Shown here: positions 6,901 to 18,640 of the stretch, one piece after another
How positions within the stretch are numbered: position 1 is the stretch's first letter
How the letters are laid out: every line of letters starts with the position of its first letter
Source of the DNA: Bacillus tuaregi
Lineage (GTDB): Bacteria; Bacillota; Bacilli; Bacillales; Cytobacillaceae
Reading direction: 5' to 3'
DNA length: 64,000 nucleotides
Assembly: GCF_900104575.1 (NCBI RefSeq)
Contig: NZ_LT629731.1
Coordinates: 384,189-448,188, forward strand
Notes under the pieces: model-generated
What the model was told of the DNA's origin: nothing
What the model saw: the letters and a program-made list of their open reading frames with translations, nothing else
Database searches by the model: none
Position numbers and translations under genes: made by a program

Positions 6901-6928
6901 AAAACAGGCAGCCGTGATGGCTGCCTGT
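6901..6928 (-). terminator. terminator of the HesB-like gene
   Basis: ACAGGCAGCC/GGCTGCCTGT hairpin followed by TTTTTAG on the minus strand, about ten bases after the stop codon. Confidence 0.85.
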
Positions 6929-6936
6929 CCTGCTAT

Positions 6937-7206
6937 CTAACAGCCTTGCATTCCTAATAATGCAAAGCCCCGGTACTCGTCATAATCTAATGTAAGGTGT
7001 GTCGCATATTCATGAATTCCTTGTTCAAAAGCGATTTGAATTCCATTGATCATTTCTACCTGATCATTCTCTTGTGCCTCATCCAGAGACACTCCAACCT
7101 CTGGGCCTCCTCAGCCAAAGCCTGCAAAATACAGGCGAACTCCCGCTTTATTCTGTGACTCTAGTAAAGAAGTAAGTTCATCACGTGCAGTATCCGTAAC
7201 CTTCAA
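6937..7206 (-). CDS. HesB/IscA-like protein with in-frame TGA (putative selenoprotein)
   Basis: An 89-residue protein if TGA at 7111-7113 (codon 32) is read through. It aligns by eye with the small HesB-like family (often misnamed adhesin) that carries a GFGCGGP motif; here the motif reads GFG-TGA-GGPEVGVSLDE, so the TGA replaces the conserved Cys. The frame after it is intact to the natural end (LLGMQGC), with no other lesion. A hairpin CCAGAG/CTCTGG (7083-7104) begins 6 nt after the TGA, where a bacterial SECIS would lie. The start is TTG 7206, with AGGAGAGGG ten bases upstream. The gene has its own promoter and terminator. HesB-like selenoproteins are a known family; the alternative is a nonsense mutation. 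Confidence 0.75.
7083..7104 (-). promoter_or_regulatory. candidate bacterial SECIS hairpin
   Basis: CCAGAG, a ten-base loop GTTGGAGTGT, then CTCTGG on the coding strand, 6 nt downstream of the in-frame TGA. The loop starts with G, as bacterial SECIS elements usually require. The TGA-to-loop distance (12 nt) is slightly shorter than typical, which lowers confidence. Confidence 0.5.
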
Positions 7207-7254: not shown

Positions 7255-7283
7255 ATAATATACCACACAGGGTATTTTGTAAA
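7255..7283 (-). promoter_or_regulatory. sigma-A type promoter of the HesB-like gene
   Basis: TTTACA (7278-7283), 17-bp spacer, TATTAT (7255-7260) on the minus strand, about 50 bp before the TTG start. A good promoter argues that the gene is expressed rather than dead. Confidence 0.65.
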
Positions 7284-10914: not shown

Positions 10915-11394
10915 TTACACCACATTTTCCCTGCCATAAAGGCTTCTAAAATACGCCTCGCTTTTTTCTTTGGCAAATTGAAAGGCATCGATTTCGGTCT
11001 TGCGTTCCTTATAAGGCAATTTTTTATCACTTTCGAAATGAAGTCGGAAGACCGGGTCCTCATCCTGCATGACATGACGAAATTCATGGAAAAGGGTCTC
11101 AATTAACGTTTCATACTCCTCGTATTGGAAAATAAAGATAATCCCCAGCTCACGCCAAAAAATCCCTGCAGCAAAGCGCAAATACTCATCCTCTTCGTCC
11201 CCTAAATCGCTGATGATTTGGTTCGCTTCCCGAATGGAGCAAAAAATCACCGGAATATGGAAGACATTCTCTAAATAAGCATCCATCGTATGATAGATGG
11301 AGCGGAGATTCCAGGAAAACTCGCTATCCAAGACATACCAGTTCTTATATCGTTGAAGGATGGTACGCTTCTGCAGTACTTCGGTTAAGGTCAT
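10915..11394 (-). CDS. zincin-like protein with HEFRH motif
   Basis: A soluble protein of about 159 residues with a zinc-metallopeptidase signature HEFRHVMQ (HExxH) at about residue 107, followed by EIDAFQFAKEK, whose Glu/Asp could be the third ligand region, as in IrrE/ImmA and related zincins. No DNA-binding domain or signal peptide is visible. The start is ATG 11394, preceded by TTGGAGG with 8-nt spacing; the longer ATG at 11409 lies upstream of that site. Substrate unknown. It may belong to a Bacillus-specific uncharacterised zincin family, which I cannot verify. Confidence 0.72.
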   Translation of the reverse strand: MTLTEVLQKRTILQRYKNWYVLDSEFSWNLRSIYHTMDAYLENVFHIPVIFCSIREANQIISDLGDEEDEYLRFAAGIFWRELGIIFIFQYEEYETLIETLFHEFRHVMQDEDPVFRLHFESDKKLPYKERKTEIDAFQFAKEKSEAYFRSLYGRENVV

Positions 11395-11613
11395 GAAGAC
11401 AGCCTCCAATCCAATTTAGATCAGCATGCTACTATCATATCGCCTATAGGTGCAGGATTATACCTATTGGGTATTATTTCCATTCTTAAAATAATTCTAA
11501 AAAGAATGAATAGTAAAAGCTGTACTAAGAGTAGGAAGGGCTGCTGTTCATCTTTTATGAGGTAATGTGTTTCATTATGCTGACACCCAAAGAAGACACT
11601 AAAAAGCGTTTAA

Positions 11614-16657: not shown

Positions 16658-18640
16658 TTAGTGAACTCTTACAGGAGATTTTTTACAAACCTGAGATTCT
16701 AGCACATAGGCTAATTCAAACGCATCCTTCACGGCAGTCGATAAGGACCCAGGATGATTAACGGCATCGCCGATGACAAATACCTGGTCAAAATGCTGAC
16801 GGAACGACTCTTCTAATGGATTATAGGCTTGGGTTCCCATTGCAATCACCACATTGTCCATATCAATGGACGTCTGCTGGCCTGAGGCAGGATCCTCAAT
16901 GACGACAGCATCCGGCTGAATCTCTGATACCCGGTGGTCGCTAATAATCTTTACATGATTCTTCTTCAATCGATTCATTAATCGTGCTCTTGTCGGTGGA
17001 CTAATTCGTCTGCCGATGGCAGTAGGAAGTTCGATATAGGTTACGTCATTTCCCTTTGCTGCCAGCTGGTCTGTGATACTAAAGCAGATCATCCCGCTGC
17101 CCATCACGACGATTTTTTCCTGATTAAAATATTTATGATGTGAATAAACATATTCATAGCCATAGACATTTGGCTGGTTAATTCCTGGGATATCAGGCAT
17201 ATAGCCCTTTGCACCGGTGGCTAAAATGACCGCATAAGGATTCATCGCTTGTATCATGCCAATCTCTGCCTCTGTATTCATATGAATCTCAACGCCTAAA
17301 CGATTCAATTCATTGCGATGATAATCAATAAACCAGTTCATTTTCTCCTTATGGAGCGGCTTGCTCACAAGCGGCAGCTGTCCGCCAAGCTTGTTATCCT
17401 TTTCAAATAAGGTAACTCGATAGCCTTTTTCCGCAAGCACTCTTGCTGCTTCCATTCCGCCAGGACCACCCCCGACAATCACTACATGGCGCTTGTCTTG
17501 AATTTGAGGAAGCTTCTGATCAAATTCAAGCTCACGTCCTGCTCTTACATTAATCGCACATTGGACATGCAGTCCCTTTCCAACCGAGCGGATGCAGTGC
17601 ATACAGCAGATGCATTTGCGAAGTTCGTCTTCGCGCTCCTCCATTACCTTATGAACCCATTCCGGATCGGCAATCTGACCACGGCCAATCGCAATAAAGT
17701 CTGCTTTTCCATCTGCTAAAATCGACTCGGCAAACTCTGGCTCACGAATCACACCAACGGTAATGACTGGAATGCTAACAGCCTTTTTCATTTCCTCGGC
17801 AAGATACACTCTCCAGCCCTGCTCATAAAGCGGCGATTCGACGATAACCTCGGAGGAATCATAGGTGCCGGCACTTGCGTGAAGTGAATCAACTCCGGTC
17901 TTCTCCAAATGGGCCCCGATTCTTAAACCCATTTCAAGGTCAATTCCACCCTTTACGAATTCATCGACGCTAAGGCGGACGGAGACAGGGAAATCTTGAC
18001 CGCAATGCTTCTTAATCCCAACGATGATTTCGTCAATAAACCGCATGCGATTCTCAAAGCTGCCGCCATATTCGTCGGTCCTTAGATTGGTATAAGGGCT
18101 GAGGAATTGGTTAACTAAATAACCATGGGCAGCGTGTATTTCAACACCGTCAGCACCAGCAAGCTTTGCGCGGACAGCTCCCATGACGAATTTCATTACA
18201 AGCTCCTTCACCTCAGCAGTCGTGAGCTCTCTAGGCTCCTCACCGATGGACGGACAGGTGACAGGACTTGGCGCCACAATTTGTTTCCCGCCAATCAGAA
18301 TTGACTTGGATTCACGCCCGGCATGGTGCAGCTGCATAAAAATCTTCGCTCCATGCTTGTGAACCGCATTAACCAACCGGTGGATACCCGGAATGAAGCG
18401 ATCCTCATCAACCCGCGGCTGAGTAACCGCTGCCTTCCCATATTCATAATCAATAGAGGCAACCTCTACAATAACCAACCCTGTACCACCTTTTGCCCGT
18501 TCTTCGTAATAGGCAATCATATGATCAGTAATTTCACCATCAGGACCGGATAGGTTGGTTCCCATCGGCGGCATAACGATTCGATTTTTCAATGTAAGGC
18601 TGCCGATTTTTCCTTTAGCAAATAAATGCTGATATTTCAT
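16658..18640 (-). CDS. NADH:flavin oxidoreductase / 2,4-dienoyl-CoA reductase-like enzyme
   Basis: A 660-residue two-part oxidoreductase. The N-terminal Old Yellow Enzyme TIM barrel binds FMN (residues ~1-335; GVEIHAAHGYLVNQFLSP with catalytic His-Ala-Ala-His, and DFIAIGRGQIADPEW). A [4Fe-4S] segment follows with Cys spaced as CICCMHC...QC (~340-365). Then come FAD- and NAD(P)H-binding Rossmann domains (VVIVGGGPGGMEAARVLAEKG; VVMGSGMICF). This is the layout of FadH, BaiCD and enoate reductase enzymes that reduce activated C=C bonds. The exact substrate is not readable. ATG follows AAAGGGGGAA. A full copy of the interspersed repeat sits just upstream. Confidence 0.9.
   Translation of the reverse strand: MKYQHLFAKGKIGSLTLKNRIVMPPMGTNLSGPDGEITDHMIAYYEERAKGGTGLVIVEVASIDYEYGKAAVTQPRVDEDRFIPGIHRLVNAVHKHGAKIFMQLHHAGRESKSILIGGKQIVAPSPVTCPSIGEEPRELTTAEVKELVMKFVMGAVRAKLAGADGVEIHAAHGYLVNQFLSPYTNLRTDEYGGSFENRMRFIDEIIVGIKKHCGQDFPVSVRLSVDEFVKGGIDLEMGLRIGAHLEKTGVDSLHASAGTYDSSEVIVESPLYEQGWRVYLAEEMKKAVSIPVITVGVIREPEFAESILADGKADFIAIGRGQIADPEWVHKVMEEREDELRKCICCMHCIRSVGKGLHVQCAINVRAGRELEFDQKLPQIQDKRHVVIVGGGPGGMEAARVLAEKGYRVTLFEKDNKLGGQLPLVSKPLHKEKMNWFIDYHRNELNRLGVEIHMNTEAEIGMIQAMNPYAVILATGAKGYMPDIPGINQPNVYGYEYVYSHHKYFNQEKIVVMGSGMICFSITDQLAAKGNDVTYIELPTAIGRRISPPTRARLMNRLKKNHVKIISDHRVSEIQPDAVVIEDPASGQQTSIDMDNVVIAMGTQAYNPLEESFRQHFDQVFVIGDAVNHPGSLSTAVKDAFELAYVLESQVCKKSPVRVH

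Follow-up and report, generated by a model that had tools for sequence, protein, structure and literature searches.

The HesB-like gene and its signals

The window analysed here is a stretch of 64,000 nucleotides from Bacillus tuaregi (contig NZ_LT629731.1). On its minus strand lies a small, solitary HesB/IscA-like gene that has a promoter and terminator of its own and a single TGA codon within its frame. An earlier note, made from the letters alone, had described this frame as intact except for the TGA, and the rest of it is indeed without lesion. The features of the locus are listed below.

7255..7283, minus strand: promoter TTTACA-17-TATTAT (promoter scan, 10/12)
7260..7275, palindrome with no assigned strand: ATACCCTGTGTGGTAT in the minus-strand reading, a putative CstR-type operator lying between the -35 and -10 elements and sharing one base with the -10
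6937..7206, minus strand: HesB/IscA-like gene, a predicted selenoprotein gene (from the frame, family matches and orthologues with the same TGA)
7111..7113, minus strand: TGA, predicted to encode selenocysteine (Sec32), where IscA/ErpA have their first conserved Cys (alignment to HI1723 and AQ_1857)
7083..7104, minus strand: hairpin CCAGAG/CTCTGG pointed out by the earlier note, +7 to +28 after the TGA, not conserved
7074..7092, minus strand: likely SECIS, 7-bp stem GTGTCTC/GAGGCAC with loop TGGAT (7081-7085), +19 to +37 after the TGA
about 6904..6928, minus strand: intrinsic terminator, a stem-loop followed by a T run, seen by eye

The frame 7206-6937 gives 89 residues (LKVTDTARDEL...YFAGFGUGGPEVGVSLDE...GMQGC) and ends in a TAG stop codon at 6937-6939. 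Translation probably starts at a TTG codon (7204-7206), the same codon as in the nearest orthologue, L024. The promoter claimed by the earlier note is present at 7283-7255; the stem-loop and T run of its terminator can be seen, but the scanner did not report a terminator there.

Selenocysteine machinery and conservation of the TGA codon

A search of the B. tuaregi genome (4.86 Mb in 16 contigs) for selA, selB, selC (tRNA-Sec) and selD, as the earlier note had advised, found all four; their absence, which it had held would count against a selenoprotein, is not the case. The scores are 560.7 bits for selA, 350 bits for selB and 406.3 bits for selD, which adjoins selA and has an in-frame TGA of its own (STKAGUGCKIG) with a hairpin after it. 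The tRNA-Sec scores 56.9 bits, over its cut-off, and ARAGORN calls it tRNA-SeC (tca), with anticodon UCA. The set that accompanies a bacterial selenoprotein gene, selA, selB, selD and tRNA-Sec, is thus found together in one genome. In G001 a second tRNA-Sec-like match lies about 12 kb from selA (L111, G001:C11:33201-33294); it scores 48.2 bits, over the cut-off, and received no ARAGORN call.

How widely is the TGA codon kept? An orthologue is found in four of the five genomes of the genus (B. tuaregi itself and three others at 69, 59 and 53% identity), each with one TGA and no frameshift, and in G004 (88% complete) there is a distant Cys homologue only. The random stop codons and frameshifts in close relatives that the earlier note had named as contrary evidence were not seen, and three genus orthologues keep the TGA. 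A genome scan with alignment A1 returned 16 loci. B. tuaregi has a second HesB-like gene with a TGA (L030, at C16:2023453), which is 32% identical to the window gene.

HesB matches are present in 153 of the 193 genomes of the family, with up to four per genome when TGA and Cys genes are counted together. Among the 150 matches listed (more exist), a hand count gives 140 with one TGA, one with TAA and nine with no stop; all 140 TGA matches among those listed are in genomes with selA over the cut-off. In every row fetched, the TGA stands at the same codon. The selA gene is over the cut-off in 172 of the 193 genomes, and selenocysteine use is common in this genome family, contrary to the remark of the earlier note on its rarity in Bacillaceae. 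The 21 genomes without selA over the cut-off have 11 matches in ten genomes, and seven of the 11 are intact Cys genes (GCCGP). The other four carry TGA: one in G179, two in G171 and one in G175. In G179, which is 81% complete, selB and tRNA-Sec are present; among the 21 genomes selB is over the cut-off only in G179 and G183, as is tRNA-Sec among the eight of them in which it was looked for. Alternation of Cys and TGA, proposed earlier as a check, is therefore seen and mostly tracks the presence of selA, but G171 and G175 are exceptions.

G171 and G175, which belong to one genus, have no selA, selB or tRNA-Sec over the cut-off despite a TGA HesB-like gene. Their loci (L071, L072 and L073) are intact or fossil TGA genes with the hairpin and with the machinery missing; the intact gene is identical in both genomes and forms all seven hairpin pairs. 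A relic or a recent transfer might be guessed at. A different case is L074 (G009:C2:43284-44544), where the selenocysteine codon is TAA in a gene that is otherwise intact and retains its hairpin. Recoding of TAA as selenocysteine was considered and rejected: G009 is a selenocysteine-decoding genome whose tRNA-Sec has anticodon TCA, and since this tRNA reads UCA, a loss mutation is the likelier explanation. Going by its sequence, the G009 copy is probably dead. In G001, a Cys HesB-like copy adjoining L032 has a TAA nine codons past its CCG motif (L036, G001:C14:13271-13510).

The likely SECIS hairpin

A bacterial SECIS is a hairpin 3' of the TGA with a G among the first two bases of its loop and with the loop 16-37 nt after the TGA. 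The window hairpin at +19 to +37, with a loop that starts at +26, has these properties. All seven of its stem pairs form, which has a probability of 0.0033 under synonymous shuffling; measured against dinucleotide shuffles, the window 60-mer, as a single sequence, shows no extra stability (z -0.15).

The comparison among homologues was made on 63-nt stretches from the codon on, with 87 entries reduced to 54 distinct TGA genes and 19 distinct Cys genes and with the TAA copy excluded. The stem at +19 to +37, whose loop is TGGAN, reaches seven pairs in 39 of the 54 TGA genes, six in eight and five in seven; the genes are related, so that these counts are not independent events. The mean is 6.59 of seven pairs, where 500 synonymous shuffles give 4.40 (sd 0.12), and the mean folding energy of the TGA stretches lies at z -14.4 (60 shuffles). 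Pair types vary while pairing is kept (CG/GC at +19/+37, TG/TA at +20/+36 and GC/TG/AT/GT at +22/+34), the fraction of paired cells is 0.94 at the true register versus 0.23-0.50 when the partner is slid, and the loop begins with TG in 54 of 54. The 19 distinct Cys homologues show no hairpin signal, with at most four pairs and a mean of 2.00 versus 2.16 when shuffled (z +1.5).

In the clade of eight to which the window gene belongs, only two members (L023 and L024) form all seven pairs. The other six (L025, L026, L041, L047, L059 and L060), which make up six of the seven TGA genes with five pairs, reach only -0.9 to -2.0 kcal/mol in the seven-pair model. For these six, a stem with an interruption (GAG/CTC plus CTC/GAG), enclosing the unchanged loop, was tried; it gives -3.4 to -4.5 kcal/mol and is not the minimum-energy fold; their minimum-energy folds match neither stem.

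The 6-bp hairpin that the earlier note had proposed does exist at +7 to +28 and has a probability of 0.012 by synonymous chance in the window, but all six of its pairs are found in only two of the 54 distinct TGA genes, and it was rejected as the SECIS. Its folding energy is -8.5 kcal/mol, versus -10.7 kcal/mol for the hairpin at +19 to +37. From this comparison of sequences, the latter (7074-7092) is likely to be the SECIS.

Selenocysteine is very probably inserted at TGA 7111-7113, to judge from the genes and codons compared here, and the probable selenoprotein of the earlier note gains support from the machinery in the genome and from the TGA kept in genus orthologues. That the TGA is an ordinary nonsense mutation, which would leave a pseudogene or a 31-residue fragment, is very improbable. 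The probably truncated copies of G171, G175 and G009 show that such genes occur in the family, and six of the eight orthologues of the clade have a weak hairpin. Set against this, the codon persists in genus orthologues of 53-69% identity and, across the 54 distinct TGA genes, at identities as low as about 30%, dN/dS downstream of the TGA is 0.05-0.46 in all nine pairs tried and so below 0.5, the selenocysteine machinery is complete, and the hairpin forms in a majority of the TGA genes but never in a Cys gene. Reading of the TGA by an ordinary tRNA, as Trp or another residue, is hardly credible: UGA is leaky in Bacillus, but the non-TGA homologues fetched have Cys at the codon and never Trp, apart from the one TAA, and neither the hairpin nor the association with selA fits.

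The product and its relatives

The window protein matches NF038090 (IscA_HesB_Se; 1.3e-13), TIGR01911 (HesB_rel_seleno; 7.5e-11) and PF01521 (5.7e-05), with TIGR00049 also among the best family matches, and all four matches are under the curated cut-offs. With 51.1 bits against a cut-off of 85 for NF038090 and 42.5 against 66.35 bits for TIGR01911, it is a divergent relative and not a strict member of either family. The HesB-like selenoprotein motif is UxGP according to excerpts of PMC13188914, and in the window gene the Cys position of that motif is the in-frame TGA (UGGP). The AlphaFold model of the protein, built on 17 alignment rows, has pLDDT 90.0 and pTM 0.77. A PDB search with alignment A4 gave five matches up to E 1, the top two being IscA-type; a search with P0001 returned only those two entries.

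IscA/ErpA carriers have three conserved Cys, one central and two in a CGC motif at the C-terminus. The window protein shows sequence kinship to such carriers, HI1723 (PDB 2apn; presumably ErpA) and AQ_1857 (PDB 1nwb), and in the sequence alignment its Sec32 falls on their conserved Cys. It differs from them in having selenocysteine for Cys and in the C-terminal CGC, which is reduced to one or two Cys: the window protein has Sec32 and one terminal Cys in place of the three. Of 43 distinct TGA proteins, 41 have a Cys among their last three residues; the distant L070 and L071 are the exceptions.

HesB-like selenoproteins as such are not new. In the excerpts available, 11 were counted in 2006 (PMC1794560) and 90, in 86 organisms, in 2016 (PMC5029168). 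One from Methanococcus maripaludis, MMJJ_08070, was found by mutagenesis and 75Se labelling and is said there to be of unclear function (PMC11097638, in part); it resembles the window protein by description and differs in being archaeal. With the curated family (TIGR01911; NF038090), as far as its available description goes, the window protein shares an IscA-like character, selenocysteine in UxGP and a bacterial selenocysteine system. It differs in that its gene belongs to a Bacillaceae clade, scores below the cut-offs and has a putative CstR-type operator. The Bacillaceae clade is aerobic or facultative.

A putative CstR-type operator

What controls the gene? The palindrome in the promoter follows the pattern ATACC-N6-GGTAT, of which a strict match occurs once in the window (0.03 expected). 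The strict palindrome lies upstream of six of the 71 homologues examined, with 0.007 expected per gene. All six are in the one clade of eight, with support 99/94 in a tree of 63 rows and few columns. In L025, L041, L047, L059 and L060 the palindrome lies 56-75 nt upstream of the aligned start; it has one mismatch in L024 and is lacking in L026. Outside the clade, one-mismatch palindromes precede L070 and L090.

In the whole genome, ATACCYN{4,6}GGTATA is found at 13 distinct places (16 rows). One is the HesB-like gene, seven precede sulfur or CsoR/CstR-family genes, two precede copA, one a transporter gene, and two are others. Sorted by spacer, they are as follows.

Spacer 6: before the HesB-like selenoprotein gene
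Spacer 6: before a rhodanese gene (L131)
Spacer 6, two sites: before a CoA-disulfide reductase gene (L132/L133)
Spacer 6: before a membrane protein gene, rhodanese-like by eye and with no Pfam or NCBIfam hit (L134)
Spacer 6: before a DsrE gene (L136)
Spacer 6: before a CsoR/CstR-family repressor gene (L137)
Spacer 6: before a TusA-rhodanese gene (L139)
Spacer 6: before an SBF/ACR3-like transporter gene (L140)
Spacer 7, two sites: before two copA-like genes, with one spacer base more than the HesB site
Spacer 5, two sites: one before a DUF3920 gene (window 11460-11474), one beside no clear gene

Further along the operon of L139 come a DsrE-like gene and one for a metallo-hydrolase/rhodanese that by eye resembles a persulfide dioxygenase. 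The spacer-5 site in the window, ATACC(N5)GGTAT, is upstream of a DUF3920 gene on the minus strand (10915-11409).

A looser pattern, without the final A, has 12 distinct places in G002 and 14 in G012. Seven of the 12 and five of the 14 precede HesB, CsoR/CstR-family, DsrE, rhodanese or copA genes or, in G002, a Cys IscA-like gene (L163); these genes were named by eye, except for L155 and L167 (PF02583), L157 (no hit) and L163, which were searched against families. Most of the other sites are inside genes. L163 (G002:C38, site 18353-18368) is a distant relative with its CstR-type palindrome about 200 nt upstream. A reversed-pattern control gave 7+3 rows versus 7+9 for the pattern in the B. tuaregi genome and 4+4 versus 11+12 in G012; in G002, with 7+12 versus 8+8, the control was as frequent. 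The bare pattern is thus weak, and it is the position before sulfur genes that carries the argument.

CstR is a CsoR-family repressor of sulfide oxidation genes with the sensor pair C31/C60, according to excerpts of PMC5480029. A CsoR/CstR-family repressor with Cys31 and Cys60 (counted by hand) is encoded by the B. tuaregi genome, so that both marks of a CstR regulon are found: the putative operator of CstR type within the promoter and, in the genome, a repressor of the CsoR family with this Cys pair. In the Staphylococcus aureus regulon (cstA, cstB and sqr), as partly seen in its description, the repressor is likewise of the CsoR family with C31/C60; the regulon is taken as a single operon there, whereas here the sites are dispersed and include a selenoprotein gene. 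In Thermus, a member of the CsoR family that is linked to sulfur genes binds a palindrome, and the form of it that was tested includes TATACCTTGGTATG (PMC10318464, in part). A different palindrome, TACCATGGTA, was seen by eye before the TGA HesB-like gene in 12 of 17 fetched loci of genus g14 (L038-L057) and is perhaps the site of another regulator.

Control of the selenoprotein gene by a CstR-type repressor at the predicted operator is moderately well favoured by this distribution. The site might instead belong to a copper-sensing CsoR, with the selenoprotein serving in copper or Fe-S protection. The pattern does stand before two copA genes in the same genome, and IscA-type proteins bind metals, but the HesB spacer of six bases agrees with the sulfur genes and not with the seven bases of the copA sites; the copper reading is unlikely.

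Paralogues in arsenic operons

TGA and Cys paralogues are found directly downstream of ArsA at 13 loci by eye, one of which, L058, was confirmed (TIGR04291, 703 bits), and directly downstream of a dual-specificity phosphatase (L067 was checked). Elsewhere the neighbours are rhodanese (L037), DsrE and rhodanese (L071) or CoA-disulfide reductase (L064). Two Cytobacillus plasmids carry, at the end of the ars operon, a TGA HesB-like copy (L176 and L177, 5001-5279) for which no gene is listed in a plasmid gene table that is incomplete by its own description, and on a Priestia plasmid a Cys copy at the end of the ars operon is annotated 'adhesin' (L178, 4001-4285). The ars1 operon of Bacillus sp. 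CDB3 includes a HesB-like orf7, according to excerpts of PMC4562236 and PMC5481582; it resembles the paralogues in name and in its ars neighbourhood, and the window gene differs in lying outside any ars operon.

These neighbours, together with orf7 of CDB3 (PMC4562236, in part), speak for a selenoprotein that acts in arsenic or other metalloid handling. Such a role is improbable for the window gene itself, which is a lone gene between a promoter and a terminator of its own and carries a sulfur-type operator.

A working model and its meaning

The gene, its TGA, the machinery, the hairpin and the distribution of the operator are read directly from sequence. Taken as a whole, the explanation by a working selenoprotein gene read through its TGA is highly probable. 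SelD would make selenophosphate, SelA would charge tRNA-Sec (anticodon UCA), and SelB, docked on the +19 to +37 hairpin, would deliver this tRNA to the TGA. The product would be an 89-residue protein of IscA fold, with Sec32 for the first IscA Cys and Cys89 near the CGC end of IscA. In this orthologue group, which spans two genera, a persulfide-sensing CstR-type repressor on ATACC-N6-GGTAT probably blocks transcription. Under reactive-sulfur stress, the selenoprotein would be made along with rhodanese, DsrE, TusA-rhodanese and CoA-disulfide reductase, and it would probably work either by accepting or reducing sulfane sulfur or by binding or protecting an Fe or Fe-S centre, through the Sec32-Cys89 pair.

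A role of the selenoprotein in reactive sulfur handling can be put forward only tentatively. There is a nearly even chance that the HesB-like selenoprotein is a direct CstR-type target in defence against reactive sulfur (perhaps selenium), with Sec32 and Cys89 as sulfane-sulfur or Fe-S ligands. The selenoprotein family is already known, and the palindrome and the link to persulfide are the new part; CstR together with a selenoprotein was not found in the literature searched, whose scope mostly excludes subscription journals, and the single paper there that combines three of the terms CstR, HesB, IscA, selenoprotein and persulfide does not mention CstR.

A large group of Bacillaceae genomes holds a divergent clade of the family, of which the four members tested score under the curated cut-offs. 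The operator ties one orthologue group to persulfide sensing, and neighbours tie others to arsenic. If true, control by CstR would provide the first physiological context for an orphan selenoprotein family, and the protein may be a natural case of selenocysteine as an Fe-S ligand. The links through operator and neighbours make the question of the family's function open to simple induction and knock-out tests.
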